Shown here one piece after another: positions 20,278 to 31,711 of a stretch of DNA of 34,405 nucleotides (within the stretch, counting starts at the first letter, position 1; each line of letters starts with the position of its first letter). The notes beneath the pieces are model-generated. The model had not been told where the DNA came from and did not search any database. It worked only from the letters and a program-made list of their open reading frames with translations. The position numbers and the translations under genes were made by a program. This DNA is from a virus. The stretch lies in IMG/VR virus record IMGVR_UViG_3300043419_000572, positions 1 through 34,405 of that record. One strand, 5' to 3'.

Positions 20278-20431
20278 TTTCTGTTCCTTCCTTGGATTTG
20301 TCCTGGCTCAATTGGGCAAGGACATTGTTGTATTCCTGGATGGCTCCGCTGATCTGCAACAAGATGGCTTCGTGTTGCTTCGCCAGTTCTCGCAATTCAG
20401 CCAGGCGTTTAGCAATTTGTTCCGGTGTCAT
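20240..20431 (-). CDS. Small coiled-coil protein, unknown function
   Basis: 63 residues, nearly all helical: [20 protein letters not shown] at the N-terminal side, then a Gln/Glu-rich tail. Hydrophobic residues at heptad spacing suggest a coiled coil. Its ATG overlaps the stop of the 54-residue gene (ATGA) and it overlaps the next gene by 38 bp. This coupling supports a real gene. I recognise no family. Confidence 0.6.
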
Positions 20432-20592
20432 TTTTTCGCTGTCTTGGCGCTTTGTTTAAAGGCTTTGGCCGTGGGGGCGCCTTTGTCCCCAGGGCTTCGC
20501 ATACGTTCAGGCGTCTTGCCCGCTGCTTTTTGGCTTTCGATCCGGTCACGCTTTGCAGCGATGTTGGCGTAAAGCCCAGGCTTGGCGGCCAT
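20428..20592 (-). CDS. Small basic phage protein (54 residues)
   Basis: The frame opens MAAKPGLYANIAAKRDRIES and continues with RMRSPGDKGAPTAKAFKQSA. The pattern KPGLxANIxxKRxRIxxG...MRxPGxKGAPTxxAFxxSAKTAK is a very widespread small phage protein, always uncharacterised. It is strongly basic. It begins 2 bp after the upstream stop and overlaps the next gene by 4 bp (ATGA). The frequent pairing with terminase genes hints at a role in head assembly or packaging; that is inference. Confidence 0.8.
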   Translation of the reverse strand: MAAKPGLYANIAAKRDRIESQKAAGKTPERMRSPGDKGAPTAKAFKQSAKTAKK

Positions 20593-20594
20593 GA

Positions 20595-20810
20595 TTAAGC
20601 GGCGGCGATGGCTGCCAGCGTATCCACGCGGCGCCAGGTCGAACCGTTGCTGAATGCCATCACGGGGCTGCCAGCAGCGCCGTTGGACACGTAAATCATT
20701 TGGCCAGCGGGTGATGCTGACGGCACGGTGGCCACGGTGTAAGCCTGGAATTCGACCAGGACAACTGCGGGATCAGCGTATGCGACGCCAACGGCTTGGT
20801 TATTGGACAT
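20595..20810 (-). CDS. Small virion-type protein with fibre-tip-like motif
   Basis: 71 residues. Residues 25-65 (AYTVATVPSASPAGQMIYVS then NGSTWRRVDT) match a short beta motif found at the ends of many phage fibre and capsid-associated proteins, usually TLPSAxxAGxxIYVSD...VLAFSDGxxWRRV. A good ribosome binding site (GAAAGGAA) precedes the ATG. It lies upstream of the terminases rather than beside fibre genes, so it may be a capsid or tail surface protein encoded apart from the rest. Confidence 0.65.
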   Translation of the reverse strand: MSNNQAVGVAYADPAVVLVEFQAYTVATVPSASPAGQMIYVSNGAAGSPVMAFSNGSTWRRVDTLAAIAAA

Positions 20811-20856
20811 GACAGTTCCTTTCAGGGGTTAAAAATTGTCGGTTTGATTTTTGCAC

Positions 20857-21117
20857 TTAATCTTCGACCACGCAAGCGATGTCGGCTTCCTGGATGATCT
20901 GGTAATCCTGGCCTTCAAAACGTTGTACGGGCCAATCCAGGTATGTCCCGTTGCCGTATTTGATTTTGTCGCCCACCTTAATTTCATGCACTTGGGGGCC
21001 GATGGCCACAATTTCGCCTTCGTTGAATTTTTCGGTGTTCTTGACGTAAATGATGTCTGACAGGTTTCTGACAAACGGCTTTACAACAACACGGTCATGC
21101 AGCGGGCGCATTTGCAT
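20857..21117 (-). CDS. GroES-like co-chaperonin
   Basis: 86 residues from the ATG at 21115-21117, which has GGAAGG nine bases upstream; an in-frame ATG two codons later is an alternative, and the frame open further upstream is not GroES-like. MRPLHDRVVVK at the start, GEIVAIGP in the middle, KVGDKIKYGNG and the end EADIACVVED align with the GroES beta-barrel. The mobile loop (residues about 15-32) carries Asp-Ile-Ile-Tyr where GroES has Ile-Val-Leu. Phage co-chaperonins such as T4 gp31 replace host GroES in folding capsid protein with host GroEL, and P22 coat needs GroEL/ES, so a capsid-folding role is the natural inference. It overlaps the upstream Cys-rich gene by 23 bp. Confidence 0.88.
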   Translation of the reverse strand: MQMRPLHDRVVVKPFVRNLSDIIYVKNTEKFNEGEIVAIGPQVHEIKVGDKIKYGNGTYLDWPVQRFEGQDYQIIQEADIACVVED

Positions 21118-21346
21118 TTTTTGGCTTCCTTCCAGGTTTCTTACGTTCGACCGGCACTTCGGCCATCTTGGTTTCGTCGGTGGTGATGTCGTACACGGGC
21201 AAAGAAACCATCTTGATGGTCTGCTCGACGTGTTCGCCGCACCAATCCATTTCGTGTTTGTTTTGGGTCGTGGGGTAGCGACGGCAGCCGCCAATCACCT
21301 GGCCAGCGACAAAGAAACGACAGGTTTTGCAACGGACGTCGTTCAT
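21095..21346 (-). CDS. Cys-rich (probable zinc-binding) small protein
   Basis: 83 residues. Cys6, Cys9, Cys21 and Cys36 (VRCKTCRFF, GGCRRYP, DWCGEH) form a four-cysteine set typical of small phage proteins with a CxxCRFF...CRRYPP...WCGEH pattern. The C-terminal tail (KKPGRKPKNAN) is basic, AT-hook-like. The ATG overlaps the previous stop (ATGA) and the tail overlaps the GroES gene by 23 bp. A metal-binding fold is inferred from the cysteines; the function is unknown. Confidence 0.75.
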   Translation of the reverse strand: MNDVRCKTCRFFVAGQVIGGCRRYPTTQNKHEMDWCGEHVEQTIKMVSLPVYDITTDETKMAEVPVERKKPGRKPKNANAPAA

Positions 21347-21522
21347 CGCACTGGCTTTCCAGCACGGACGGCAGCGTTCAGGGCTGCGGCCATGTCTTCA
21401 GCAGCGGAACGCACTTTTGCTTCGTGCATCCGCTTCATTCGATGTTCAGCGGGCGTTGCCTCGCGTCCCTTCATAGATGGCTTGGCTGATACTGCCGCTT
21501 CGGTAGGCTTTTTCAAGGGCAT
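21343..21522 (-). CDS. Small helical basic protein downstream of the zeta-like kinase
   Basis: 59 residues from the ATG at 21520-21522, chosen because AAAAGGA lies 7 bases upstream; a GTG one codon earlier is possible. The sequence is Lys/Ala/Met-rich and helical (AEHRMKRMHEAKVRSAAEDM). It overlaps the end of the kinase gene by 77 bp in another frame and its stop overlaps the start of the Cys-rich gene (ATGA). No family is recognised. The long overlap with the kinase makes it a possible partner, for example an antitoxin, but there is no direct evidence. Confidence 0.55.
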   Translation of the reverse strand: MPLKKPTEAAVSAKPSMKGREATPAEHRMKRMHEAKVRSAAEDMAAALNAAVRAGKPVR

Positions 21523-22369
21523 CACTTAATCCTTTTCTCACTTCATTGTGATCCAGGCGTGGCAACTTGTCAAGTCCGCTTACAACGTTTGCATTTCCTG
21601 GGCCGCGGCTGTTGTCAATGACCATCATGTGGAACCGGTGATCGTCGCCGTATTTGGATTGCAGCCGATCCATAACGTCACGCGAACCCATGTGGGTTTT
21701 GAAATGTTCGTCGATTGGAACGGTGCGACCGCTTCCCTTTTCGGCTTCCATGTTTCTGGCCCGCCTTAGGGCGCCGCCTTCCATGGCTTCCACGGGGTCG
21801 CGGTAGGTGTACACAATGCCGACCTTACGACCGGCTTTCAGTGCCTGGTCGATTTTCTTGTCAGCCGAATCAAACGAATTCATGTTGGTGTCGTACACCA
21901 TTTCCGCGTCGCGGATCGCTGGGCTGACTTCCCTGGCCATTTGCAAGCCGGTGCTTTTTCCCGCGCCAGTGCCGCCAGCGGTGAAAAACACGGTGTTGTC
22001 CATGCCTGGCGGGGTGGGCTGGGATAGCTTCTCGGCGTACATCTGTTTGACGAATGCCGATGACGGTTCATGCACGTCTGCCGACCTGGTGCGGTCGGCG
22101 CGGTACTCTGGCGACATTTCACGGGCGTCGTCCGTGTTCAGGATGCGGCCACCATTGGTCGATGGCAATGCCGCGTACTCTGACGCCAGGCCGGTGTAAT
22201 CGTTGGCCAGGCGCTCGAAATACGACTGTTCAATCGGGTTGGCCGATTGGGATTGGGGCAGTGTCGGCTGTGGAACAAGCGATGCCAGGGCGGCCTGGGT
22301 AGGCTGTGCGCCCTGGGCCGCCGCCGGTTGCTGCCCCGCCGCTGCCAGTTGTGACAGCGGGGTGGCCAT
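21446..22369 (-). CDS. Zeta-toxin-like P-loop kinase
   Basis: 307 residues. Residues 1-45 are a Gln/Ala/Pro-rich tail. From about residue 125, VFFTAGGTGAGKST is a Walker A motif (132-140), followed by DAEMVYDTNMNSFDSA, VGIVYTYRDPVEAMEGGAL and RRARNMEAEKGSGRTVP, then IDEHFKTH, the order and spacing of the zeta-toxin/AAA kinase family. Known zeta toxins phosphorylate UDP-N-acetylglucosamine and block peptidoglycan synthesis; whether this protein uses that substrate is unknown. Arg190, Arg202 and Arg203 are candidate phosphate-binding residues. It overlaps the upstream 72-residue gene by one base (TAATG type), and no standard epsilon antitoxin is visible. Confidence 0.75.
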   Translation of the reverse strand: MATPLSQLAAAGQQPAAAQGAQPTQAALASLVPQPTLPQSQSANPIEQSYFERLANDYTGLASEYAALPSTNGGRILNTDDAREMSPEYRADRTRSADVHEPSSAFVKQMYAEKLSQPTPPGMDNTVFFTAGGTGAGKSTGLQMAREVSPAIRDAEMVYDTNMNSFDSADKKIDQALKAGRKVGIVYTYRDPVEAMEGGALRRARNMEAEKGSGRTVPIDEHFKTHMGSRDVMDRLQSKYGDDHRFHMMVIDNSRGPGNANVVSGLDKLPRLDHNEVRKGLSDALEKAYRSGSISQAIYEGTRGNAR

Positions 22370-22587
22370 TACTTCTGGTACGACTTACGGTCGTGCGAGT
22401 AGCAAACGCCCTTGCTGCGGCCACCATCAAAATTGTGGTTCGCGCCAGTTGCGTCAGCTTTGCCCATGGCCACGCCATTTTTGATGGCCTCCATGCGCTC
22501 ACCAGACTTGTCGCTGGCAGCAGCGCCAGCGGGCGCCTTGGCGCTTGTACCGTAACCCTTGGGTTGCATTTCGGCGTTATCTTTCAT
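22369..22587 (-). CDS. Small Gly/Ala/Lys-rich protein coupled to the zeta-like kinase
   Basis: 72 residues, hydrophilic and probably disordered (PKGYGTSAKAPAGAAASDKS), ending with a conserved-looking GGRSKGVCYSHDRKSYQK segment. A ribosome binding site AAAGGGA precedes the ATG. Its stop shares a base with the kinase ATG, so the two are likely translated together. Similar small proteins ending in a CYxHDRKxYQ-like segment occur in phages, all uncharacterised. It could be a partner of the kinase or an unrelated structural protein. Confidence 0.65.
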   Translation of the reverse strand: MKDNAEMQPKGYGTSAKAPAGAAASDKSGERMEAIKNGVAMGKADATGANHNFDGGRSKGVCYSHDRKSYQK

Positions 22588-22600
22588 GGTCTTTTCCCTT

Positions 22601-22960
22601 TCAGTTTAGGAATTTCAAACGATACAACGTTTTGTCAATCAACGATGCGATTTCGTCGATGATATTCTGAAGTTCAGAATCTTGTGGCAAATCTTCCCTG
22701 GCTTCTTTGACAAACTCAGACAACGATTCCAGGTATTTCACTGGATTTTTGGCGTTGTGGAATTCTTCAGGGTACTTTTTGATTTTTTCGTATTTGCCCT
22801 GGTACGCTTCGGCAAAGTCGTCGGCCAGGTCAATGATTTCGACGTAATACTTCCCCAGCGCCTTGTGTTCCGAATACGAATCGGTTGAAAGGTGCATGAA
22901 ATGTGTCACCGTGCTGCTGTGCAGCAATGCGGCGATAAATTCGGATGCGTCGTTTTCCAT
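22601..22960 (-). CDS. DUF5856-like four-helix protein
   Basis: 119 residues from the ATG at 22958-22960. An upstream in-frame ATG at 23026 is rejected because it would place the terminator 22977-23003 inside the gene. The sequence is entirely helical: LLHSSTVTHFMHLSTDSYSE, HKALGKYYVEIIDLADDFAE, then AYQGKYEKIKKYP, and DSELQNIIDEIASLIDKTLY. The pattern THFxHLxTxSYxEHKALxxYYxxIxDLxDxFAExYQGKYE matches phage proteins I know as DUF5856, which resemble ferritin/Dps-type helical bundles with His and Glu residues. Whether it binds metal or DNA is unknown. The ATG has no clear ribosome binding site. Confidence 0.7.
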   Translation of the reverse strand: MENDASEFIAALLHSSTVTHFMHLSTDSYSEHKALGKYYVEIIDLADDFAEAYQGKYEKIKKYPEEFHNAKNPVKYLESLSEFVKEAREDLPQDSELQNIIDEIASLIDKTLYRLKFLN

Positions 22961-22976
22961 GGGGCGATGATAAATG

Positions 22977-23003
22977 AAAAAATCGGGGGGTGATAGCCCC
23001 CCG
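22977..23003 (-). terminator. Rho-independent terminator after the nuclease gene
   Basis: On the minus strand CGGGGGG (23003-22997) pairs perfectly with CCCCCCG (22990-22984) around a 6-base loop, followed by ATTTTTT. It begins about 10 bases after the stop of the DUF1364-like nuclease gene and would separate the early nin-like genes from the genes leading to packaging, unless transcription is antiterminated. Confidence 0.88.
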
Positions 23004-23013
23004 TCAAGGTGGC

Positions 23014-23367
23014 TCAGTTCTGGCAACTGTCGATAAGCCGCGTCAATTCTGCCTCACTTGGCAGCGGGACGTCAACGGGCCATTGGTTGGCGTCTGTCAA
23101 GTGCTGCACCGTCTTCATGTGCGCGGCCACCCAGGCTTGCTGGCGTTCCTTTTTTGACCATTTGGCGCCCTGGTCAATGTCGTGGTGGCACGACATACAC
23201 AACGCGGCCACCAGGTTGTCGTCGGCCTTAATGCCGCGGCCCTTGCCCCCTCCCCAATTGGTGTGCGCTGCCTGGACAAAATGCCCCGACCCGCACAACT
23301 GGCAATCAAGGCTGGCGACCAGGCGCAACAGCTTTTTGCTTCTCACGTAGGGGTGTTTTGGAATCAT
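23014..23367 (-). CDS. HNH-type nuclease, DUF1364/YbcO-like
   Basis: 117 residues from the ATG at 23365-23367; a GTG at 23406 would add 13 residues. Cys22 and Cys25 (DCQLCGSG), the motif AAHTNWGGGKGRGIKADDNL and the Cys57-x2-Cys60-His-His set (LCMSCHHDIDQG) form a beta-beta-metal nuclease fold as in the DUF1364/YbcO family. Such genes sit in the nin region of lambdoid phages near NinB and resolvase-like genes. The probable role is processing recombination or replication intermediates. It is followed by a strong terminator. Confidence 0.85.
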   Translation of the reverse strand: MIPKHPYVRSKKLLRLVASLDCQLCGSGHFVQAAHTNWGGGKGRGIKADDNLVAALCMSCHHDIDQGAKWSKKERQQAWVAAHMKTVQHLTDANQWPVDVPLPSEAELTRLIDSCQN

Positions 23368-23491
23368 AAACTTTTTCGATTGTTGAAAACCGGTGCAAAT
23401 TGCCACATTCGTAACGGCGGTGTTTTTCGTTGTTTGGCTTTTTGCGGGTTTCTTTGACCAGCGTCCAAGCGCCGCATTCGGGGCATTTCAC
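23306..23491 (-). CDS. NrdR-like zinc-ribbon small protein
   Basis: 61 residues. MKCPECGAW at the start and RRYECGNLHRFST in the middle give a CxxC...C...H zinc-ribbon resembling the N-terminal domain of NrdR-type regulators, without the ATP-cone. The ATG overlaps the NinB stop (ATGA) and the C-terminal 20 residues overlap the nuclease gene. Homologous short proteins are common beside nin genes; nucleic-acid binding is likely, a regulatory role is not shown. Confidence 0.75.
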   Translation of the reverse strand: MKCPECGAWTLVKETRKKPNNEKHRRYECGNLHRFSTIEKVYDSKTPLREKQKAVAPGRQP

Positions 23492-23889
23492 GTTTCAATT
23501 CCTTTTTCAGCGCACCAGGCCAGCAACCATTCGATAAATTCGGTGGCGTCGGGTATGGTGAATTTGTGTGTTTGTCGGCCCAACTGGACGACGCGCTGGC
23601 CATCCAGGCTTGGCGCCACCTTGCCAATCTTGCGGTCGGTTTCGTGCGCCCACTGGTCGATCAACAGGCGTTTCCAATCGTCTGCCGACCAATTCGATCC
23701 AGCCGCCCGCATCGCCAAATAAATCTGGTGGATGATGGCGTGGAACATATCGTTTTGATCCGACGACCTGGTGGCGCGTTTGATTTCCAGGCGCATTTTG
23801 TGGCCAGCCATCAAGTTGTTTTTAACGTCGGGCCAAATGTTGTCCATCAACACCTTGGCTTGCTGGGCGTTGTGCAATTCGTAAATCAT
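23488..23889 (-). CDS. ninB: NinB-family recombination protein
   Basis: 133 residues. The motif KRATRSSDQNDMFHAIIHQI and the later WKRLLIDQWAHETD, then LGRQTHKFTIPDATEFIEWL and AWCAEKGI, match the NinB (Orf) family, whose lambda member binds single-stranded DNA and replaces RecFOR-like mediators during recombination. It overlaps both neighbours by 4 bp (ATGA), inside a nin-like block of nucleases. It would work with the Erf/exonuclease/SSB-like set encoded on the plus strand. Confidence 0.85.
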   Translation of the reverse strand: MIYELHNAQQAKVLMDNIWPDVKNNLMAGHKMRLEIKRATRSSDQNDMFHAIIHQIYLAMRAAGSNWSADDWKRLLIDQWAHETDRKIGKVAPSLDGQRVVQLGRQTHKFTIPDATEFIEWLLAWCAEKGIET

Positions 23890-24176
23890 TTCATCACGCC
23901 CAACACGCGCAACGCGGCGTCCACGCCATCAACAACGGCCAGCGGGCCACCGCGCCAAGCGCCGTGCCACTTCAGTTGGTCTTCGGTCAGTCGCCGCGCC
24001 GACGGCGGTTTATGGCCGTCTTTAACTTCAAGCAAAATGGTTTTGCCTTGGTGGCCCACCAGCAAATCAGGGACGCCGACGCCAACGCCCGCCAAACTTT
24101 GCACCGTAGCGCCAGCCGCCCGCAGCGCCTGGACAACTTGCTCCTGGTTTGCATCAATTTTTGCCGCCCGTCTCAT
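23886..24176 (-). CDS. PD-(D/E)xK nuclease, VRR-NUC-like
   Basis: 96 residues, a minimal nuclease domain. Asp37 (GVPDLLVG), Glu50-Val-Lys52 (TILLEVKDG) and Gln67 (LTEDQLKW) form the PD-(D/E)xK catalytic set in the order of VRR-NUC and Holliday-junction-resolvase-like phage nucleases. Its stop overlaps NinB by 4 bp. In lambdoid nin regions this slot often holds a resolvase (Rap or RusA), so junction or flap cleavage is the likely job. Confidence 0.8.
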   Translation of the reverse strand: MRRAAKIDANQEQVVQALRAAGATVQSLAGVGVGVPDLLVGHQGKTILLEVKDGHKPPSARRLTEDQLKWHGAWRGGPLAVVDGVDAALRVLGVMK

Positions 24177-24429
24177 GTTTGCACCTGTTCATGTCTTCCC
24201 GCAAGGTACGCGCTGCACCAGGGCCGCGGATTTTCTCGATTTTCTCTATCGTGTCCGACCACCACGCGTTCGCAAACCTCGCGCCCCTCTCGCGTTGGTG
24301 AACCTTGAACCGGCGCAACCAATCCCTGGCTTCGCATTCCCGTCGCCAGGCTTCCGACCAGGTGGGTTTCTCGCCATCCAGCAAGGTCGCCTGTGGCGAT
24401 AAGGGCCGCGGTGATTTGTTCAAAGTCAA
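24154..24429 (-). CDS. DUF7696-like small protein (start uncertain)
   Basis: Up to 91 residues; the first codon at 24429 is TTG, with GAGGG 8 bases upstream, and no in-frame ATG exists near the N-terminus. The core TWSEAWRRECEARDWLRRFK ... IEKIEKIRGPGAARTLREDM has the W-x2-ECEAR ... RG-x2-A pattern of DUF7696-type phage proteins. It overlaps the 103-residue frame by about 257 bp and the start of the nuclease gene by 23 bp. The Trp- and Glu-rich helical sequence reads as a genuine protein. Function unknown. Confidence 0.6.
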   Translation of the reverse strand: MTLNKSPRPLSPQATLLDGEKPTWSEAWRRECEARDWLRRFKVHQRERGARFANAWWSDTIEKIEKIRGPGAARTLREDMNRCKHETGGKN

Positions 24430-24484
24430 AGTTTTGTCCCTCTTTTATTTTGTCCAGCAATAAATGGCCTTCGTCGCGTGTCAT
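24173..24484 (-). CDS. Small phage protein overlapping the DUF7696-like gene
   Basis: 103 residues. Residues 1-35 (MTRDEGHLLLDKIKEGQNFD, then FEQITAALIATGDL) look like a recurrent phage N-terminus (EGHxLLDxIxxG...INAALxATGDL). The remainder is less protein-like and may be read-through of the overlapping frame. The ATG overlaps the previous stop (ATGA) and its TGA overlaps the nuclease start, which supports translation of the whole frame. Either both overlapping genes are made, or one frame was extended by loss of a stop. Confidence 0.5.
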   Translation of the reverse strand: MTRDEGHLLLDKIKEGQNFDFEQITAALIATGDLAGWRETHLVGSLATGMRSQGLVAPVQGSPTREGREVCERVVVGHDRENRENPRPWCSAYLAGRHEQVQT

Positions 24485-24693
24485 TGAATGCGACCTTTCA
24501 TTGCCTCAACGTGCGCTCTTTGTTGATCCATCAATTCATCACGCTGCTGGCAAACTTGCTGATACAAGTTGTATAAGGTTTCAACGCCACTTGACAATCG
24601 CCTAAGTTCGGCAGCCGCACTAATTTGGGCTTCCATGCTGGCATCGTTGCATTCAAGGTAATCACATAATTGCAAAAGTTCTTCGCGGGTCAT
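24481..24693 (-). CDS. Small helical phage protein, unknown function
   Basis: 70 residues from the ATG at 24691-24693, which has GGGGGAA upstream and overlaps the previous stop (ATGA). MTREELLQLCDYLECNDASM is followed by a coiled-coil-like segment (QQVCQQRDELMDQQRAHVEA). The frame continues open upstream, but that part is covered by the neighbouring gene. No family is recognised; comparable helical proteins are frequent in the accessory part of phage early operons. Confidence 0.6.
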   Translation of the reverse strand: MTREELLQLCDYLECNDASMEAQISAAAELRRLSSGVETLYNLYQQVCQQRDELMDQQRAHVEAMKGRIQ

Positions 24694-24971
24694 GTATTCC
24701 CCCTGTTTCGGATGGCGGCGGCGTAAGACACCCATTTCGGCGTTGTTGTTGGCGCATATGTTTCACACACCTTTGCACACGCCTCTCTTTCGGCTGCTGC
24801 AATGCTGCGCTCGTACTCAGTCCAATGCTCTTGTGTCCACGTGCGGTTTCGCTCATCAGCACGGACAAGGGCTTCAAAGTCTTTGATGGCATCTGTGCTG
24901 CACATATAAGTGTTGGTGTGTTCTTGCCAAAAACCAGCCTCACGGGCCATGTCTATCGTGTCTCTTGTCAT
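24690..24971 (-). CDS. Small phage accessory protein, unknown function
   Basis: 93 residues. It contains IDMAREAGF at the N-terminus, ALVRADERNRTWTQ in the middle and AAAEREACAKVCETY near the C-terminus. The sequence AxEREACAKVCE...AAAIRxRG is a very common signature of small uncharacterised phage proteins. It overlaps both neighbours by 4 bp. No catalytic motif or membrane segment is seen. Confidence 0.75.
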   Translation of the reverse strand: MTRDTIDMAREAGFWQEHTNTYMCSTDAIKDFEALVRADERNRTWTQEHWTEYERSIAAAEREACAKVCETYAPTTTPKWVSYAAAIRNRGNT

Positions 24972-25357
24972 TTCGGCATCCTCATTTGTTTTGTCATTTC
25001 ACGCAGCATGGCCAAGGCTTTTTCTTTGGCTTCCTGGGCTGCAATCTGTTCGTGTACGGTCGGCTGGCGCGTCACCAGCGTGTGGGGCTTGTCAGGAATG
25101 CGCGGGCCGTCGTTTAACAGTTTGGCAAACGCCAGGGCCGATGGCGGGCGGTCGGGGTTCATGTGCTTCAACGCGTAATCCATCTTTGGCCGGTACGTCA
25201 GGCCGCGCCCGCATTCGTCCATCCATGCCTGGCGAATGATGGCCGGATCAATGTCGCGCCAATGGTTGGCAAAGGTGGCGCCGTAAATGGCGTTCATCTT
25301 GGTAAAGATGTAATCAAAGCCGCTGTCGGCATCACAAAAGTCGTTTGCGTTCCACAT
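24968..25357 (-). CDS. Probable replication protein, lambda P-like
   Basis: 129 residues, starting within the last 26 bp of the DUF1376 initiator gene, with an excellent ribosome binding site (GGAGG, 7 bases before ATG). The order FDYIFTKMNAIYGATFANHW, then IRQAWMDECG, LTYRPKMDYALKHM, PPSALAFAKLLNDGPRIP resembles phage proteins annotated as replication protein P, which bring host DnaB helicase to the origin. The pairing with the initiator gene mirrors lambda O and P. It is shorter than lambda P (233), so the helicase-loading role is probable but not certain. Confidence 0.6.
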   Translation of the reverse strand: MWNANDFCDADSGFDYIFTKMNAIYGATFANHWRDIDPAIIRQAWMDECGRGLTYRPKMDYALKHMNPDRPPSALAFAKLLNDGPRIPDKPHTLVTRQPTVHEQIAAQEAKEKALAMLREMTKQMRMPK

Positions 25358-26084
25358 CGGACACCTCCACGGTTTGTTCAGGTTTCGCCCAAAAGTTTGT
25401 TGGCTTGGGTGTGGCCAGGCCGCGGGTAAGTGCCGCCATTTGCGTCAAACGGGCCTCTGACGCGGTTTTCTTGGCTGCCTGTTGCCGACGTACCCAATTG
25501 CGCCAAGTCGCCGTCCAATCGGTTTTTACGCCCTTTTGGCCAGGCTGGGCAATCCAGTAGTCACGGAACCCGTCGAACGTTTCCCTGGGGTCAAGTTCGG
25601 GCCGGTGTTGACGACAAAAACCAACCCATTCGTCAGACAACGGAAAGTCAGGGGCCAATCGCGTCCCGCGTTGGCTCTCTCTCTTTGGTTTCTGGTTATT
25701 GGTTATTGGTTCATGGTTACTGGTTAGGGTTATTTTGGGTTCGACTTGGGTTTCCTGTGGCAACCCACTGGGTTTTTTAGGGCGCCCACCCTTGCGTCCG
25801 TTCTCACGGTTGCGCTCAGCAAGTTGGTGGTAATGCGCGATTTCCAGGTCGCAACGGTCGTGCCGCCAGCCGTCATCACCGCAAACAAACATATCGTTCA
25901 GCACAGCAACAATGACCATTTGGTCAATTCGCAAACGCCTGGCAACCCATTGGGTATCTGCTGGGATTGGTTGTTCGGTGTCGTAGTACATATCCAGCAA
26001 CCGACGAAACGCCAAATCTTCCTCATTGGAAAGATGGGCCGTCGATGCCCGATAGTCACCTATGTGAAATTGGTAATAGTGCAT
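25332..26084 (-). CDS. Replication initiator, YdaU/DUF1376 family
   Basis: 250 residues from the ATG at 26082-26084 (GAGGAAAAA directly upstream; a GTG at 26105 is less likely). MHYYQFHIGDYRASTAHLSN and LAFRRLLDMYYDTEQPIP are the DUF1376 signature, a winged-helix-like N-terminal domain. A low-complexity linker (about residues 115-140, HEPITNNQKPKRES) is encoded by the 7-bp repeat array at 25687-25734. The C-terminal half (DEWVGFCRQHRPELD, YWIAQPGQKGVKTDWTATWR) is the common DnaT/replication-protein tail. By analogy with lambda O it would bind the origin within its own gene. Confidence 0.85.
   Translation of the reverse strand: MHYYQFHIGDYRASTAHLSNEEDLAFRRLLDMYYDTEQPIPADTQWVARRLRIDQMVIVAVLNDMFVCGDDGWRHDRCDLEIAHYHQLAERNRENGRKGGRPKKPSGLPQETQVEPKITLTSNHEPITNNQKPKRESQRGTRLAPDFPLSDEWVGFCRQHRPELDPRETFDGFRDYWIAQPGQKGVKTDWTATWRNWVRRQQAAKKTASEARLTQMAALTRGLATPKPTNFWAKPEQTVEVSDVERKRLL
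25687..25734. repeat. Tandem 7-bp repeats, candidate replication origin
   Basis: Plus strand units: GGTTTCT, GGTTATT, GGTTATT, GGTTCAT, GGTTACT, GGTTAG, GGTTATT, in exact tandem with one 6-base unit. They lie inside the initiator gene and encode its Asn/His/Pro linker. Lambda-type origins carry direct repeats in the initiator gene, so these could be iterons; their short length and coding role leave the call open. Confidence 0.5.
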
Positions 26085-26187
26085 TTTTTCCTCACGCCGT
26101 CCCACACAAAAAAGGAAATCGCGGCGGGCGGGTGGGCTCGCTTTTCGGTTGGGTAATTAGTCCAACCTAGCCGGATTCCAGCAAATT

Positions 26188-26373
26188 CTATCCCTTGAAC
26201 CACTTGGGCCGCAAGGCCCGCAACTGCCACAAACGCGCCTGGGGAACCCTGTCGCCCCATTGGCTGATCGCCTGGCGCGTAATGCCCAGCAACTTGGCCA
26301 ACGCCACGGCGCTGCCCGCTTTTTCAATTGCTTGATGTGTTTCCATGGTCGCATGGTAAGCCAACTTTCGCAT
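26188..26373 (-). CDS. Cro-like helix-turn-helix repressor
   Basis: 61 residues from the ATG at 26371-26373, supported by AAGGTG 8 bases upstream; homologues would suggest the ATG at 26344-26346 (52 residues), which lacks a ribosome binding site. METHQAIEKAGSAVALAKLL, then GITRQAISQWGDRVPQARLW, is a classic lambda Cro/YdaS-type helix-turn-helix. It is the first gene of the leftward operon, next to the divergent promoters, and would be expected to bind the palindromes there. No CI-type partner with a cleavage domain is present. Confidence 0.85.
   Translation of the reverse strand: MRKLAYHATMETHQAIEKAGSAVALAKLLGITRQAISQWGDRVPQARLWQLRALRPKWFKG
26357..26368. promoter_or_regulatory. Possible third operator half-match
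   Basis: TAAGCCAACTTT resembles the reverse complement of TAAGCTGGCTTA at 27027-27038 with two mismatches. It lies 40-50 bases left of the divergent promoter and inside the longest version of the Cro-like gene. A weak operator is possible; the match could be chance. Confidence 0.3.
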
Positions 26374-26396
26374 TTTTGCAACACCTTGAAAAATAT

Positions 26397-26425
26397 TTTG
26401 TAAGGGGGCTTTACAACAATGTAAA
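26397..26425 (-). promoter_or_regulatory. Leftward early promoter (PR-like)
   Basis: On the minus strand TTTACA (26425-26420) is followed after 17 bases by TACAAA (26402-26397). Transcription would start near 26390 and reach the Cro-like gene within about 20 bases. The -35 box is one arm of a palindrome whose other arm is the -35 of the rightward promoter, so the two promoters overlap by 16 bp. Confidence 0.6.
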
Positions 26426-26427
26426 GC
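26408..26427. promoter_or_regulatory. Perfect palindrome shared by divergent promoters (probable operator)
   Basis: GCTTTACA and its exact reverse complement TGTAAAGC are separated by ACAA. Each arm holds a TTTACA -35 box, one per strand. A repressor bound here would silence both operons together. The symmetry fits a dimeric HTH protein such as the Cro-like product encoded 35 bp away. Confidence 0.7.
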
Positions 26428-26438
26428 TGGCTTAATAT
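26410..26438 (+). promoter_or_regulatory. Rightward early promoter P1 (PL-like)
   Basis: TTTACA (26410-26415), a 17-base spacer and TAATAT (26433-26438). The spacer contains AAGCTGGCTT, a short palindrome repeated in promoter P2. The transcript would start near 26445 and reach the first gene at 26488, which has AAAAGGAAATTGAA before its ATG. Confidence 0.7.
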
Positions 26439-26487
26439 TCGTCTATGCCCTAGCGAATTGCACGGGGTCTTTTAAAAGGAAATTGAA

Positions 26488-26748
26488 ATGTTGAAAATGA
26501 TGAAGTTCTACGTTACCAACGGAACAGAAAAAGCCCGCGTTTGGTACAGCCGCGGCCAACTGATTGACGGTCGTGATTGCGTCACGATCTACGCCAAAGA
26601 CTACACCGGCGCCCTGGGCCGCATCTTCCGCGATGCAGCGCCCTACGAAAACAACACTGACACGATGACCGATTATTTTGAAAAGGGTCGTGTCCGGATT
26701 TTTCAAGACAACCCATTTTGGGCCACTGCTTGCGCCCGCGCCGTATAA
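26488..26748 (+). CDS. First gene of the rightward early operon, unknown function
   Basis: 86 residues, translated from a strong AAAAGGA site. The sequence (KFYVTNGTEKARVWYSRGQL, then YAKDYTGALGRIFRDAAPYE) is soluble alpha/beta without Cys or membrane segments, and aromatic residues are plentiful. The pattern suggests a small globular early protein of the kind that modifies host functions. I recognise no family; the location right after the first promoter implies it is the earliest product on this strand. Confidence 0.75.
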   Translation: MLKMMKFYVTNGTEKARVWYSRGQLIDGRDCVTIYAKDYTGALGRIFRDAAPYENNTDTMTDYFEKGRVRIFQDNPFWATACARAV

Positions 26749-26758
26749 GGAAAAAGCC

Positions 26759-26857
26759 ATGAACCGCGAACCAACCGATCTGGAAATTGTGGGCATGGCA
26801 CTGGTGATCGCGCCGGTGCTGTACATCTTGCTGTGGCTTGCCATGGCCATCTTTTAA
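26759..26857 (+). CDS. 32-residue membrane microprotein
   Basis: ATG follows AAGGAAAAAGCC. The frame is MNREPTDLEIVGMALVIAPV then a run of Leu, Trp, Ile and Ala to the end (LYILLWLAMAIF), i.e. a short charged head and one membrane helix (residues about 10-32). The tight spacing to both neighbours (10 bp each) supports it as a gene in the operon. A single membrane-helix early peptide could act on the envelope, e.g. exclusion of other phages; that is speculation. Confidence 0.65.
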   Translation: MNREPTDLEIVGMALVIAPVLYILLWLAMAIF

Positions 26858-26867
26858 GGGGAACGAC

Positions 26868-27029
26868 GTGAGAATTTTTAGAGTGCATCGGGCTGGCAAA
26901 GTTTTCTTTGCCGCCTACCTGGGCAGCGTTTACATCGAACGCGCCAGCCTGGCCGAATTACGTGAGGCCATCGCAGTCCGTGAAAGTTTTTTAAAAATTT
27001 TTGCAAAACCTGTTTACATCGCCAGTTAA
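26868..27029 (+). CDS. Small early protein, GTG start
   Basis: 53 residues beginning with GTG at 26868 after AAGGGG; an upstream ATG at 26838 lies inside the preceding microprotein gene and has no site. The sequence (IFRVHRAGKVFFAAYLGSVY, then IERASLAELREAI) is a compact beta-hairpin plus helix. Its stop codon lies within the palindrome of promoter P2, so promoter and gene end overlap. No family recognised. Confidence 0.65.
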   Translation: MRIFRVHRAGKVFFAAYLGSVYIERASLAELREAIAVRESFLKIFAKPVYIAS

Positions 27030-27042
27030 GCTGGCTTACAAT
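27013..27042 (+). promoter_or_regulatory. Rightward early promoter P2 with operator-like palindrome
   Basis: TTTACA (27013-27018), an 18-base spacer and TACAAT (27037-27042, 5 of 6 matches to consensus). TAAGCTGGCTTA (27027-27038) is a palindrome with 5-bp arms and overlaps the -10 box. The same core, AAGCTGGCTTA, is found in P1 at 26424-26434, so both promoters probably answer to the same regulator. Confidence 0.65.
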
Positions 27043-27082
27043 CGAACCATGCCGGAAACGGTCTTTTAAAAAGGAAATTGAA

Positions 27083-27337
27083 ATGAATGCAAACACTACC
27101 AACCGCGACAGCCAAATGTATGGCTGCGACTTCCAGAAATTCCTGGACAGCGTTACCAGCTCCATCACCTACAAATTCAGCGGCGCCAACATGATTGTGG
27201 CGGGCTTAATGTCTGACGCCCAGGAACAAATGGCGTTTGGTGATACTGAGGGCGCCCGCCAAACCCTGAACCGCGCCAAAGGCGTTTTGTTTGCGGTCAT
27301 GGACGGTCAATTGAACGCCAGCGGGGTGGCAGCATGA
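27083..27337 (+). CDS. Conserved early phage protein, unknown function
   Basis: 84 residues preceded by the same AAAAAGGAAATTGAA leader as the gene at 26488. The sequence includes QKFLDSVTSSITYKFSGANM, then IVAGLMSDAQEQMAFGDTEG, then ARQTLNRAKGVLFAVMDGQL. It is a mostly helical soluble protein with an ASD/AQE turn pattern seen in short hypothetical proteins upstream of Erf genes. It overlaps the next gene by 4 bp (ATGA). Function unknown. Confidence 0.75.
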   Translation: MNANTTNRDSQMYGCDFQKFLDSVTSSITYKFSGANMIVAGLMSDAQEQMAFGDTEGARQTLNRAKGVLFAVMDGQLNASGVAA

Positions 27338-27546
27338 ACGCCGTCACCATCACCAACCCCAACCAAATCGCAACGTTTGTCAATGCTGACCTGGGCGTGG
27401 CTGCCCTGGTCACAAAAATCAGCACGGGTTACGCCGTGACGTTGTGGGACACCGACGCGGAAATGCCGGTCGGCGGCGTTCGCACCTACGGCAGCGCAAT
27501 GTTGGCGCCAGCCATCAACTACGCGCAAAAACTGGCCAATGTTTAA
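27334..27546 (+). CDS. Small early protein, unknown function
   Basis: 70 residues, coupled to the previous gene by an ATGA overlap. Pattern: ITNPNQIATFVNADLGVAAL, then VTKISTGYAVTLWDTDAEMP, then VRTYGSAMLAPAINYAQKLA, giving a small beta-sheet plus a C-terminal helix. No metal site or membrane segment. I recognise no family. Confidence 0.7.
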   Translation: MNAVTITNPNQIATFVNADLGVAALVTKISTGYAVTLWDTDAEMPVGGVRTYGSAMLAPAINYAQKLANV

Positions 27547-27649
27547 CTGGCCATTTCCACCACCAGGGGGGCCAATCCCCTGGACGCGCCAACAACAGCG
27601 CGATTACCAACAGCAGCAGCGGGACAAATTACCACCCGCACCATTTTGA
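27539..27649 (+). CDS. 36-residue proline/glutamine-rich protein
   Basis: The ATG overlaps the end of the 70-residue gene in another frame. The sequence starts MFNWPFPPPGGPIPWTRQQQ and continues with RDYQQQQRDKLPPAPF. A proline/aromatic N-terminus with a PWTxxQ turn followed by a charged Gln-rich helix recurs as a tiny phage protein (MFxWPFPPP...PWTREQ). There is no clear ribosome binding site, so translation probably depends on the gene upstream. An inverted repeat (27563-27583) falls within its Pro/Gly codons. Confidence 0.55.
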   Translation: MFNWPFPPPGGPIPWTRQQQRDYQQQQRDKLPPAPF

Positions 27650-27658
27650 AAGGCAGCC

Positions 27659-27817
27659 ATGAAAATTAAACGCATCAAAACCAACGACCAATCGCCACTT
27701 CAACCGCGTTTGCTCAACCCCGATTTCAAATATGTGCCAGCGTCAAAAACGGACGTCCTCAAACGATTCCGCGACCTTGGCTGGATTCCCCCGTCTGAAT
27801 TGAAAACTCAATCCTAA
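27659..27817 (+). CDS. Small basic early protein
   Basis: 52 residues: MKIKRIKTNDQSPLQPRLLN followed by FKYVPASKTDVLKRFRDLGW and IPPSELKTQS. A ribosome binding site GAAAGG precedes the ATG, and the next gene follows after 16 bp. The KTDVLKRFRDLGWIPPSE segment resembles short phage proteins located before Erf/RecT genes. No function is known to me. Confidence 0.7.
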   Translation: MKIKRIKTNDQSPLQPRLLNPDFKYVPASKTDVLKRFRDLGWIPPSELKTQS

Positions 27818-27833
27818 AACTGAAAGGCTAAAC

Positions 27834-28454
27834 ATGAAAGTTTATAAAGCAATCAACGCCGTCCAGGCTGAATTGTCCACGGTCGGCATCACTAAAGACC
27901 GTCGCAATATGCAAGGCAGCGGTTACAACTTCCGCGGCATTGATGATGTTTACAACACCATTTCGCCTTTGTTGGCAAAACATGGTTTGTGCATTTTGCC
28001 CCGCGTGTTGGCGCGTGAATGTATTGAACGCGTCAGCCAAAAAGGTGGCGCGTTGTTTTACATCACTGTTGAAGTTGAATTCGATTTTGTATCTGCTGAA
28101 GATGGCTCTAAACACACCGTCAAAACGTTTGGTGAAGCAATGGACAGCGGCGACAAAGCCACCAACAAAGCAATGTCAGCCGCTTATAAATACGCCGCAT
28201 TCCAGGCGTTCAGCATTCCAACTGAAGCGGACAACGATGCCGACGCGCACACGCATTCTGTGGCCGCTGTGCCTGACATCACCGACCACCTGGCTGCAAT
28301 TGATGCAAGCGCCAGCAGCGACGAATTGGCAGCCGTTTACAAAACAGCGTTTGAGGCTTGCCAGGGCAACCAAGCATTGCAAGCCAAAGTGATGGCAGCC
28401 AAAAAAGTTCGCGTGGCCCGTGCCAAAAAAGATTTATCAACCAAAGGAAATTGA
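27834..28454 (+). CDS. erf: Erf-family single-strand DNA annealing protein
   Basis: 206 residues. The core (YNFRGIDDVYNTISPLLAKH, then GDKATNKAMSAAYKYAAFQA and FSIPTEADNDADAH) is diagnostic of the ERF superfamily, first known from P22 Erf. The C-terminal 60 residues form a separate helical tail as in other Erf proteins. It anneals complementary single strands during recombination-dependent circularisation and concatemer formation. It is followed after one base by the exonuclease gene, its functional partner. Assignment is firm from sequence. Confidence 0.95.
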   Translation: MKVYKAINAVQAELSTVGITKDRRNMQGSGYNFRGIDDVYNTISPLLAKHGLCILPRVLARECIERVSQKGGALFYITVEVEFDFVSAEDGSKHTVKTFGEAMDSGDKATNKAMSAAYKYAAFQAFSIPTEADNDADAHTHSVAAVPDITDHLAAIDASASSDELAAVYKTAFEACQGNQALQAKVMAAKKVRVARAKKDLSTKGN

Positions 28455-28455
28455 A

Positions 28456-29082
28456 ATGACTGACGAAATCGAACAACGCACCGACGAATGGTTTGCCGCC
28501 CGCCTGGGCAAGGTCACCGCGTCCAAGGTGGCCGACGTGATGGCCCGAACAAAGTCGGGTTACAGCGCCAGCCGCGAAAACTACATGGCCCAACTGGTGG
28601 TCGAACAAATCACCGGCACACGCCAGGAATCGTTCAGCAACAGCGCAATGCAATGGGGAACCGACCAGGAACCCTTTGCCCGCGGCGCGTATGAAGCGAC
28701 CAGCGGCAACATGGTGGAGGAAGTGGGCTTTATGAACCACCCGACCATCGCCATGGCTGGCGCGTCACCCGACGGGCTGATTGGCGACGACGGATGCGTG
28801 GAAATCAAATGCCCCAACACGGCCACCATGATCGAAACGCTGCTCACGGGCGCCGTGCCGCAAAAGTATTTCACGCAAATGCAAATGCAAATGGCTTGCG
28901 CGGGCCGCGCCTGGTGCGACTACGTGGTGTTTGATCCACGGATGCCACCCAAGGCGCAACTGTTCATCAAGCGCGTACCGCGTGAAGATGTGTTCATCGC
29001 TGACATGGAAGCGGAAATTATCAAGTTCCTGGCCGAAACCGCGGTCAAGGTCGATCAACTGAAGAAAATCATTGGGGAATAA
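28456..29082 (+). CDS. YqaJ-family (lambda exonuclease-like) nuclease
   Basis: 208 residues from the ATG at 28456, which has AAAGGAAATTGAA upstream; an earlier in-frame ATG at 28420 lies inside erf. RTDEWFAARLGKVTASKVAD opens the YqaJ recombinase domain; catalytic candidates are Asp106 (SPDGLIG), Glu117 and Lys119 (VEIKCPN), with a Gln-rich helix (KYFTQMQMQMACAG) after them. It would degrade one strand from DNA ends to produce the 3' tails used by Erf, as lambda Exo does for Beta. It is followed by the SSB-like gene after 3 bp. Confidence 0.93.
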   Translation: MTDEIEQRTDEWFAARLGKVTASKVADVMARTKSGYSASRENYMAQLVVEQITGTRQESFSNSAMQWGTDQEPFARGAYEATSGNMVEEVGFMNHPTIAMAGASPDGLIGDDGCVEIKCPNTATMIETLLTGAVPQKYFTQMQMQMACAGRAWCDYVVFDPRMPPKAQLFIKRVPREDVFIADMEAEIIKFLAETAVKVDQLKKIIGE

Positions 29083-29085
29083 ATC

Positions 29086-29364
29086 ATGGCCAAACTCATC
29101 AACGAAATCACCGTCATCACTGGCACGTACACCAACGCCCAGGGGCAGCAAAAGAACCGTTACCAGCGCATCGGTTCGATCATCGAAACCAAGAACGGGC
29201 CAATGCTCAAAATCGACGTGATGCCCCTGAAGGAAGGCGGTTGGGATGGCTGGGCATACATCAACGAACCACGCGAACGTGACGACCAGCCGCAGCAGCG
29301 TGGCCGCCAGGCGCCGCAAAGCAGCGGGTTCGACGACATGAACGACGACTTGCCAAACTTCTAA
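29086..29364 (+). CDS. SSB-like single-stranded DNA-binding protein
   Basis: 92 residues. Strands in the order ITVITGTYTNAQGQQKNRYQ, then RIGSIIETKNGPMLKIDVMP suggest a short OB-fold-like barrel, followed by a Gln/Arg linker and an acidic tip (FDDMNDDLPNF). Acidic tips ending in Phe are the partner-recruiting signature of SSB proteins. Its position after exonuclease and Erf completes a recombination module. The barrel is smaller than that of canonical SSB, so the match is to phage SSB-like proteins, not to the host family. Confidence 0.75.
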   Translation: MAKLINEITVITGTYTNAQGQQKNRYQRIGSIIETKNGPMLKIDVMPLKEGGWDGWAYINEPRERDDQPQQRGRQAPQSSGFDDMNDDLPNF

Positions 29365-29373
29365 GGGGCCATT

Positions 29374-29523
29374 ATGGGTGCAATCATTGGCATTTTGTGT
29401 TTCATCGCCTGGTTGACCCATGTCTTTACCTGTTTTGCGGGTGGGATGTGGGGGTTCTTACTGGCTGGCGCGATCTTTTTCCCGCTTGGCATTCTCCACG
29501 GGTTCTACCTGTGGTTTGCATAA
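29374..29523 (+). CDS. Membrane microprotein (49 residues)
   Basis: ATG follows TAAGGGGCCATT. Two hydrophobic stretches (GAIIGILCFIAWL and GGMWGFLLAGAIFFPLGI, ending HGFYLWFA) give two predicted membrane helices joined by a short THVFTCF turn. The pattern MWGFLxAGxxFFPxGIxHGxxxWF recurs in small phage membrane proteins of unknown role. It lies in the early recombination operon, 9 bp from each neighbour, so it is not part of the late lysis cassette. Confidence 0.75.
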   Translation: MGAIIGILCFIAWLTHVFTCFAGGMWGFLLAGAIFFPLGILHGFYLWFA

Positions 29524-29532
29524 GGGGGCGCT

Positions 29533-30045
29533 ATGCAGTTGGATTTTTTTGGTGATGCTGAACACTACCTGGCGCAACTGAAAACCAACTGGCGGGCCAC
29601 CATTGAAAGCGACGGGGGCCACTGCCCCTGTTGCGACAAGTGGGGCAAGATTTCCCCCTTCACCATCACTGAAACACACGCGCTGGCGCTGCTATGGCTG
29701 TCCAGGGCGCCGTGTGACGGTGACGGCTGGGTGGATGTCCCGCCAATTGCACCAGCCTGGATGCTGCGCGGCAAAAACTACACGACCATGGCCAAGTGGG
29801 GTCTGATCGAACAAGGTGGCCATGACGACAAATCAAAGCGGTCGGACGGGTTCTGGCGCGTGACGGCCAAGGGGCTGCATTTCCTTTGCGGAACCACCAC
29901 CGTGCCGCGCAAGGCTTTCATTTACAACAACCAAGTGCAAGGCTGGTCGGACGAATGCGTGTCGTTCAGGGATTGCTTTGGCCGTCATTTTGATTATGCT
30001 GACGTGATGGCCGACAACTTCAATTTGAACGGGATCAAACTATGA
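29533..30045 (+). CDS. Winged-helix-like protein with Cys pair, unknown function
   Basis: 170 residues. CPCCDKWGKISPFTITETHA resembles a zinc-knuckle followed by a helix; then ALALLWLSRAPCDGDGWVDV and TTMAKWGLIEQGGHDDKSKR, with the latter followed by SDGFWRVTAKGLHFL, look like a winged-helix domain used to bind DNA. These proteins are frequent at the ends of phage early operons. It overlaps the next gene by 4 bp (ATGA). A regulatory role is a fair inference but not shown. Confidence 0.75.
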   Translation: MQLDFFGDAEHYLAQLKTNWRATIESDGGHCPCCDKWGKISPFTITETHALALLWLSRAPCDGDGWVDVPPIAPAWMLRGKNYTTMAKWGLIEQGGHDDKSKRSDGFWRVTAKGLHFLCGTTTVPRKAFIYNNQVQGWSDECVSFRDCFGRHFDYADVMADNFNLNGIKL

Positions 30046-30317
30046 ACAAAAACGAAATGGAATTGGACATGATGGTGGCCGACTTGGAACACGAAAACCG
30101 GCTGCTGCGGGCCAGGAATGAACGGCTGGAAACAGAAAAAACCGATTGGGTTTGTCCATTCTGCTACGCGACCAAATGCGAAACGCCTGGCGAATGCAAA
30201 AGCCTGGCGATCCGCAACCAGGTGCTGGAGGAAGTCGCCAAGGAATTCGACAAAATGAAAGTCCTGGGCGACACCGCGGCGTCGTTTGCGGTGTTCGTCA
30301 GGAACATGAAACGTTAA
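30042..30317 (+). CDS. Coiled-coil protein with Cys cluster, end of the rightward operon
   Basis: 91 residues. The N-terminal half is a coiled coil (MVADLEHENRLLRARNERLE) and the middle has Cys residues in WVCPFCYATKCETPGECKSL, a probable zinc site. Helices with an LEEVAKEFDKMK segment follow. Its stop codon overlaps the stop of the convergent endolysin gene by 4 bp, so the two operons meet tail to tail here with no obvious terminator between. Confidence 0.7.
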   Translation: MNKNEMELDMMVADLEHENRLLRARNERLETEKTDWVCPFCYATKCETPGECKSLAIRNQVLEEVAKEFDKMKVLGDTAASFAVFVRNMKR

Positions 30318-30751
30318 ACGAACGGCCTGGTTCCGGCCTTGTCGATAATCAGGGCTTGCTTACGCGGTGCGGTCGAATCAGTGTTGGGTACGCTGATATG
30401 TGTCCAACGGTCAAACTCGCGAATCACCTGGTCGAACCCGATGCCGCTGGCCACGATCTTTCGCACCACTTCGTCGGGCGTCATGCCTGGCACACGGAAG
30501 TCGGCAGCGCATCCAATCCGGTGCTGGCTGGTGTCTCGGCTGCCCACCGCGTCGTTCACCTTTTTTGTCCGCAGCCCCGACGAAATCATTATGGGCTTGC
30601 CGCCCAGCACAACCTTGACTTGCTCCAGGAAGTCAGCCAGGCGCGTCAGGTTGGCCAGTTCCTGGTCGTTGGGGCTGTTGTCCCACCCGTTGCGCTCGGC
30701 TGTTTCGGATGCGGTCAATTCTTCCAGCGTGAAATGTGGCGTCAGGTTCAT
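30314..30751 (-). CDS. Endolysin, peptidase M15 (D-Ala-D-Ala carboxypeptidase-like)
   Basis: 145 residues. LTPHFTLEELTASETAERNG is the typical Peptidase_M15_3 start; His77, Asp84 (SQHRIGCAADF) and His118 (WTHIS) are the zinc ligands and Glu112 is the probable catalytic residue. It cuts peptide cross-links in peptidoglycan. There is no signal sequence, so it depends on the holin encoded immediately upstream, with which it overlaps by 4 bp (ATGA). It is the last gene of the leftward unit as read around the circle. Confidence 0.92.
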   Translation of the reverse strand: MNLTPHFTLEELTASETAERNGWDNSPNDQELANLTRLADFLEQVKVVLGGKPIMISSGLRTKKVNDAVGSRDTSQHRIGCAADFRVPGMTPDEVVRKIVASGIGFDQVIREFDRWTHISVPNTDSTAPRKQALIIDKAGTRPFV

Positions 30752-31158
30752 TTTTTGCCCTTCATGTCAACGATTTTTTCCAATGTGCGGCCACCAAAGT
30801 AAAACGACATCACCAGCATTCCCCACTGGCCCAGCAGCGTGACGTATTCCTCGTTTGCGTTGTAGCCGAATGCCGACATCATGGCAAACACAAAGTAGCC
30901 CACAAAGATGGCCACCAGGGTCATGGGCCGGATGTTTTTGGACAGCCAGGAATCCGACGACATATCGGCTTTCAGGCGGTCGGTCAGGTTGTTTTGCTCG
31001 GTCTTGTACAGGTCGGTGTCGTTGGCCATCTTGGCCAGTTCGCCGTCCTGGGCCATCTTGGCCAGTTCCAGTTGCGCCTTGGCTTTGGCTTCGGGATCGG
31101 GAATCAGTTTGTCGATCAGCTTCCCACCGACATTCAACAATGCGTCAAGTGCAAACAT
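30748..31158 (-). CDS. Holin, GTA-type 3TM family
   Basis: 136 residues. The N-terminal LIDKLIPDPEAKAKAQLELA is the hallmark of the GTA_holin_3TM family. A helical linker is followed by hydrophobic helices (MTLVAIFVGYFVFAMMSAFG and VTLLGQWGMLVMSFYFGG) and a short basic tail. It forms the membrane lesion that releases the M15 endolysin. It overlaps both neighbours by 1-4 bases, as usual in lysis cassettes. Confidence 0.9.
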   Translation of the reverse strand: MFALDALLNVGGKLIDKLIPDPEAKAKAQLELAKMAQDGELAKMANDTDLYKTEQNNLTDRLKADMSSDSWLSKNIRPMTLVAIFVGYFVFAMMSAFGYNANEEYVTLLGQWGMLVMSFYFGGRTLEKIVDMKGKK

Positions 31159-31466
31159 TATTTTTTCTCCAGCCTGGTTTCAATGATCGCAATTTTTTGG
31201 CGATTGTGCTGAATATCGTCGCGGTTCTTTTGGATTTCAGCGGAAAGGTCTTGTCGCAGCCGTTCACGCGCCAATTCCGCGCCGGTGTTGGTGGCTTGCT
31301 TGTTGTCGCTGGTCACAACCAAGCTGATCTTGCTGTTCAAAATCGTTACTTCATGGCTCAGACTAGATAGCGCCGTCATCAGGTACACCACGCACGAAAA
31401 CAACAACGGGAGGATGGCAAACGTGATCTTTTCAATCAACGCGCCTTTTGCGGATTCTTCGCTCAT
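31158..31466 (-). CDS. Lysis-cassette protein with N-terminal TM helix and coiled coil
   Basis: 102 residues: a short N-terminal cytoplasmic part, a TM helix (ITFAILPLLFSCVVYLMTAL, residues about 14-33), then a long coiled coil with ELARERLRQDLSAEIQKNRD. This topology (N-in, coiled coil outside) is that of an inner-membrane spanin such as Rz, and the place next to the holin is right. There is no visible Rz1-type lipoprotein gene, so a spanin role is only a candidate. Confidence 0.65.
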   Translation of the reverse strand: MSEESAKGALIEKITFAILPLLFSCVVYLMTALSSLSHEVTILNSKISLVVTSDNKQATNTGAELARERLRQDLSAEIQKNRDDIQHNRQKIAIIETRLEKK

Positions 31467-31467
31467 T

Positions 31468-31710
31468 TCAATGCCCTTTCATCCAACTGATTGCAAACCC
31501 TACGGCGCTGGAAATGAACGACACAAACGCCATTCCAGCCCAAAAGCCCCCGCGGCCCTGGTTGGCCAGCGCCACCAGCTTTTCCAGGTTGCTTTCCATC
31601 TTGTCCATTTTCTTTTCCATGTCGTCAAACCGGCGCTCGTAGTTTTGAACCTTTTCCCACAACACGCCATATTTGACCGGATCAATTCCGGATTCTTCAA
31701 ACTGCGCCAT
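31468..31710 (-). CDS. XhlA-like holin-associated protein
   Basis: 80 residues from the ATG at 31708-31710, with GGAAAG upstream; longer frames start inside the 865-residue gene. A coiled coil (YERRFDDMEKKMDKMESNLE) is followed by a C-terminal membrane helix (WAGMAFVSFISSAVGFAIS). This is the arrangement of XhlA/haemolysin-type phage lysis proteins, which help the holin and endolysin. It is the first gene of the lysis cassette and lies one base from the stop of the ejection protein gene. Confidence 0.75.
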   Translation of the reverse strand: MAQFEESGIDPVKYGVLWEKVQNYERRFDDMEKKMDKMESNLEKLVALANQGRGGFWAGMAFVSFISSAVGFAISWMKGH

Positions 31711-31711
31711 T

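Follow-up and report, generated by a model that had tools for sequence, protein, structure and literature searches.

A candidate Cro-only early control region between two divergent operons of a phage with P22-like head and packaging genes

Introduction

In the early control regions of phages lambda and P22, pseudo-palindromic operators lie inside back-to-back promoters. Lambda OR holds three operators, and the transcript of lambda PRM is leaderless. Divergent promoters around a Cro operator are also found in immB of the telomere phage PY54, where Cro has a single site, OR3, which represses cI rather than cro, and where both the cI and the cro mRNA were found to be leaderless by RACE (PMC4488713). 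In Cluster K mycobacteriophages, the ESAS/SAS repeats contain inverted repeats and precede some of the genes, lying just ahead of the start sites; an untested role in translation initiation has been proposed for them (PMC3203893).

The DNA analysed here, called the window throughout, is the whole of a 34,405-nucleotide viral stretch (IMG/VR record IMGVR_UViG_3300043419_000572, positions 1 to 34,405). An earlier note on it had recognised correctly that a pair of early operons runs outward from a single short intergenic region, at which a Cro-like protein is encoded, and had proposed that the two promoters share a palindrome as opposing -35 boxes, the operons possibly forming a toggle. After comparison with related loci, the region resembles the control regions of lambda and P22, with the CI repressor missing, more than it does a toggle built on a shared box. 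It resembles P22 and lambda in its P22-family Cro and in the pseudo-palindromic candidate operators inside back-to-back promoters, and here too one promoter is predicted to be leaderless. It differs from them in that no cI was found between the diverging early operons, that the putative leaderless promoter drives cro together with the replication operon, and that the recombination operon stands under the opposite promoter, with the effect that the two early operons, left and right, directly adjoin. With PY54 the region shares a cro mRNA that is predicted to be leaderless, and promoters that diverge on either side of a Cro operator; PY54, however, has cI and one Cro site, whereas here candidate sites are present in the cro promoter as well and no cI was found. 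The likeness to the ESAS/SAS repeats lies in repeated inverted-repeat units just upstream of start sites at a subset of genes, although the unit described here is a recognisable promoter, operator and leader hairpin, and the SAS repeat sequence is different.

Results

The cro gene (26188..26346, minus strand) encodes a protein of 52 aa and opens the leftward early operon, where a DUF1376 primosomal-like gene and, at a greater distance, NinB lie behind it. The protein matched the PF14549 (P22_Cro) profile above its curated cutoff (E 6.2e-13; 48.7 bits, cutoff 30.2), and also matched the structures of P22 Cro (1rzs, E 0.0013) and XPH1 (5w8y, E 0.00074); by its profile match it is a member of the P22 Cro repressor family. 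Two longer readings of the gene from upstream starts (75 and 61 aa) were rejected because relatives align from METHQ, and they are disfavoured too by the conserved -10 box directly before the METHQ ATG. In a tblastn search of phage records with Cro, only Pantoea phage PdC23 matched, and megablast of 20001-34405 against phage records gave no matches. Against a collection of about 85,000 species (one genome each), Cro gave at least two remote matches, with no close one among the matches listed. The head and packaging genes, with matches to families for the portal, head closure, the major head protein and DNA ejection, are read here as P22-like. A gene at 20860-21294 has a C-terminal part matching phage GroES-like co-chaperonins (phrog_3188, E 2e-10).

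On the plus strand, the rightward early promoter P_plus (26410..26438; -35 TTTACA, 17 bp, -10 TAATAT) was found by a mechanical promoter scan, is well supported by its conservation in relatives, and has a predicted transcript start near 26445. Its operon includes the ERF and YqaJ recombination genes. The first rightward gene (26488..26748, plus strand; 86 aa) belongs to a family of unknown function (phrog_18717, E 7.7e-7). By eye, close relatives retain the promoter and leader but have different first genes behind them, which suggests exchange of genes at the leader.

In a search with the HTH_3 profile (PF01381), no CI-type prophage repressor gene was found adjoining cro; cro itself was the only match in the window, and the 13 related records searched (31-35 kb) gave none above the cutoff. 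The tyrosine integrase profile (PF00589) had no match in the window or in the same 13 records, with positive controls. The window record is linear, and a segment may be absent from it, but eleven of the 13 related records measure 34-35 kb and are likewise without the sought genes. The claim of absence covers these two profiles; an unusual repressor or a serine integrase may be present.

The palindrome GCTTTACA-ACAA-TGTAAAGC spans 26408-26427 (GCTTTACA at 26408-26415, ACAA at 26416-26419, TGTAAAGC at 26420-26427). The opposing TTTACA boxes lie exactly where they had been placed (plus, 26410-26415; minus, 26425-26420), and the spacing of 17 bases holds on both strands, to TAATAT at 26433-26438 on the plus strand and to TACAAA at 26402-26397 on the minus strand. 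As a bare palindrome the site is ordinary, since the window has six perfect inverted repeats of this quality (arms ≥8, loops ≤8 bases), no more than chance (mean 5.45 in 20 first-order Markov shuffles). From related loci found through ERF and Cro, 85 upstream regions were collected, mostly from metagenomic fragments that are not independent of each other; with the window included, 60 are distinct. Perfect 8-bp arms are intact in two of the 60 distinct regions, the window and L083, and the palindrome of L003 has arms of 7 bp. L084 and L085, with a Cro identical to that of the window, have lost it by one or two base changes and carry TTGACA as the -35 box. A 7-bp palindrome re-formed in L109 (GCTTGAC/GTCAAGC) hinted at co-variation of the arms; the idea was dropped, as the other compact relatives showed none.

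What recurs among the relatives is a set of candidate Cro-type operators, pseudo-palindromic TAAGNNNNCTTA, at three positions named O_cro, O_mid and O_plus. They were scored with a weight matrix derived from relatives only, those with identical Cro being left out. O_cro (TAAGCCAACTTT, 26357..26368, centre 26362.5, score 18.0) lies inside the cro promoter and keeps a constant distance from the cro ATG in most relatives. The outer half of O_mid (TAAGGGGGCTTT, 26401..26412, centre 26406.5, score 18.7) overlaps the plus -35 box, which is built into that half, and O_plus (AAAGCTGGCTTA, 26423..26434, centre 26428.5, score 21.1) lies inside P_plus, overlapping its -10 box. A fourth operator, centred at 27032.5 in a second rightward promoter, has the top score (21.7). 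These four early-region sites are among the five best matrix sites of the window and lie above every one of 20 whole-window shuffles, the highest score of which was 16.0. Operator-like matches at 7227.5 (7218-7237, score 18.1) and 21576.5 (21567-21586, score 16.1) were set aside: both lie within genes, with no promoter-like setting on inspection, and are probably due to chance. The bases that complete a -10 box (AT) flank the O_cro and O_plus cores and, by column counts, are missing beside O_mid in most relatives. O_mid is degenerate or absent in L097, L111 and L117, which makes its role uncertain.

The operators account for most of the palindrome. The outer halves of O_mid (GCTTTACA, the left arm) and O_plus (TGTAAAGC) face each other with ACAA between them, and the palindrome consists of these abutting half-sites. 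The distance from O_mid to O_plus is 22 bp in the window, 22-23 bp in compact relatives and 35-37 bp in expanded ones, where a separate TTGACA or TTGCAA serves as the rightward -35 box and 14-15 extra bases lie between the two operators; compact relatives mostly have TTGACA-17-TAnnAT at the P_plus position. The comparison thus indicates that the palindrome arises mostly as a by-product of two neighbouring Cro-type operators, and that it is not as a palindrome that the sequence is conserved. For this stretch of DNA, a role in protein binding, as formerly suggested, is well supported by conservation, but the view of a perfect palindrome acting as one shared site is not, given its loss in L084 and L085 and the separation of its elements in expanded relatives. 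The three operators of L007 and L008, spaced at 23 and 22 bp, are reminiscent of lambda OR, where related operators stand similarly, some two turns of the helix from each other, across a pair of divergent promoters; in the window the spacings are 44 and 22 bp, and the 44 bp between O_cro and O_mid are unlike P22 and lambda. L046, L049, L052 and L056 have longer intergenic regions, in which an inverted repeat resembling TAGGGTT-CCCTA lies between the promoters; another protein may bind there.

The minus promoter TTTACA-17-TACAAA that the earlier note had paired with P_plus gave way in this comparison to a promoter lying 44-45 bases further left. TACAAA is a poor -10 box (4/6) in which position 6 is not T; since the promoter scan demanded A2 and T6, it found the plus promoter and not this one. 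Comparison of relatives places the putative cro promoter P_cro at 26353..26381 on the minus strand, with a -35 box TTGCAA (26381-26376), a 17-bp spacer and a -10 box TACCAT (26358-26353) ending exactly 6 bases before the cro ATG. This TTGCAA-17-TACCAT is weak by consensus (8/12) and was absent from the scan list, the threshold of which was 9. Across the 18 compact regions, a set that takes in the window and its close kin, the T1-A2-T6 signature is present at the cro -10 box in all 18 and at the formerly proposed minus -10 box in none. Of the 60 distinct regions, 48 have a TAnnnT box upstream of the cro ATG, at a distance of exactly 6 nt in 44 and of 5 or 7 nt in 4; the 44 include all 35 regions whose Cro is at least 64% identical. 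TTGACA or TTGCAA occurs 17 bp upstream of this box in most nearer relatives, and L004, L006, L107, L112 and L115 have TTGACA-17-TAACAT as the cro promoter. Transcription of cro would start 7 nt after the -10 box, at the A of its ATG (26346), and we therefore infer that the cro mRNA is leaderless. L119, L124 and their kin form a separate group without a TAnnnT box before cro; by eye, L119 has there a Shine-Dalgarno-like AAGGGAG instead.

The second rightward promoter (27013..27042, plus strand; TTTACA-18-TACAAT, 10/12 in the promoter scan) contains the operator TAAGCTGGCTTA (27027-27038) and is followed by a hairpin at 27051-27062, so that a second promoter-operator-leader unit extends over 27013-27062. 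The first such leader has a 5'-proximal hairpin at 26447..26468 (plus strand) and then a TCTTTTAAAAGG tract. After each promoter, a short stem-loop abuts TCTTTT and is followed by a Shine-Dalgarno-like stretch. Stems of at least 3 Watson-Crick pairs in the TCTTTT register were present in all 44 distinct leaders (shuffles: mean 12.8, maximum 22), and compensatory exchanges occur among them (CCC/GGG, CCG/CGG, CCGC/GCGG, CCTC/GAGG). Since the folding energy of the two window hairpins is not unusual (z -0.03 and -0.86), the support for the hairpin lies in these paired changes and not in stability. An Rfam search of 26200-27400 returned only a sub-threshold chance match. Two or three units are carried by 33 of 140 scanned sequences, the window among them; as some loci overlap on one contig, the figure counts sequences rather than independent phages. 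Many relatives repeat the unit within the early operon, for instance L003, L090, L105 and L116, as does the window at 27013-27085.

Discussion

We consider it highly probable that early transcription is controlled here by Cro only, in a phage whose head and packaging genes are P22-like, and that P_cro and P_plus diverge and are jointly repressed by Cro. The two promoters would diverge from one stretch of roughly 100 bp, P_plus giving the transcript of the recombination operon with ERF and the YqaJ exonuclease, and P_cro the leaderless mRNA of cro and the replication operon. A Cro dimer is predicted to bind one operator in P_cro, one in P_plus and a middle one over the -35 box of P_plus. To judge by position, Cro on O_plus would overlie the -10 region of P_plus, on O_mid its -35 box, and on O_cro the spacer and -10 box of cro. 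As its level rises, Cro would shut P_cro and P_plus together, the former by autorepression, and it would also shut the further promoter-operator copy at 27013-27042 in the same rightward operon. Because the operators of a single repressor would stand at both promoters, joint repression and autorepression are expected, and not a toggle.

Tandem promoters are common, and a second, weak leftward promoter could lie at the palindrome, overlapping P_plus and giving a leadered early cro transcript, in addition to the promoter at the cro ATG. TTTACA-17-TACAAA does reach 9/12 to consensus and is present in a few close relatives; nevertheless, it is not conserved beyond them, T1-A2-T6 is missing from all 18 compact regions, and by eye no fitting unit is seen in the expanded L004 and L006, which makes this arrangement unlikely. 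It is also conceivable that the operators are bound by a regulator other than Cro, either a host factor or another phage protein, as Cro binding is deduced from sequence and the operator at 27032.5 sits 0.7 kb from cro. However, the operators are grouped around cro and the divergent early promoter in contigs that were found via Cro or ERF. No other HTH_3-like protein than Cro was found in the record, and Cro belongs to the P22 Cro family, so that we regard such a regulator as quite improbable. Least plausible of all, and in our judgement very unlikely, is the toggle in which the palindrome halves act as opposing -35 boxes and one polymerase or dimer at either promoter excludes the other: the exact geometry of the window, the same palindrome in L083 and the TTTACA kept as a minus -35 box in several compact relatives, where it is part of the O_plus half-site, speak for it, but the minus -10 signature and the palindrome itself fail in the relatives as described, no second DNA-binding regulator was recognised among the scanned proteins of the rightward operon, and with cro transcribed from its own ATG the predicted starts are 99 bp apart, so that mutual exclusion of polymerases is not required.

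Building on the Cro-only control region, we propose, more tentatively and with the balance somewhat against it, that in these CI-less phages one autorepressing Cro runs portable promoter-operator-hairpin cassettes with a TCTTTTAAGGA leader end. The cassettes, each with a covarying 5' hairpin leader, would be placed before different early genes, and the hairpin would add a second layer of control, through attenuation, antitermination or mRNA protection. A possible resemblance of GTCTTTAA to boxA offers a lead.

Comparison with relatives has thus corrected a plausible but misleading reading of this promoter region. The arrangement that emerges is little described: a P22-type Cro circuit appears to persist without CI or tyrosine integrase in a group of environmental phages, which raises the question of what purpose Cro may serve in phages for which lysogeny is not a recognised option.
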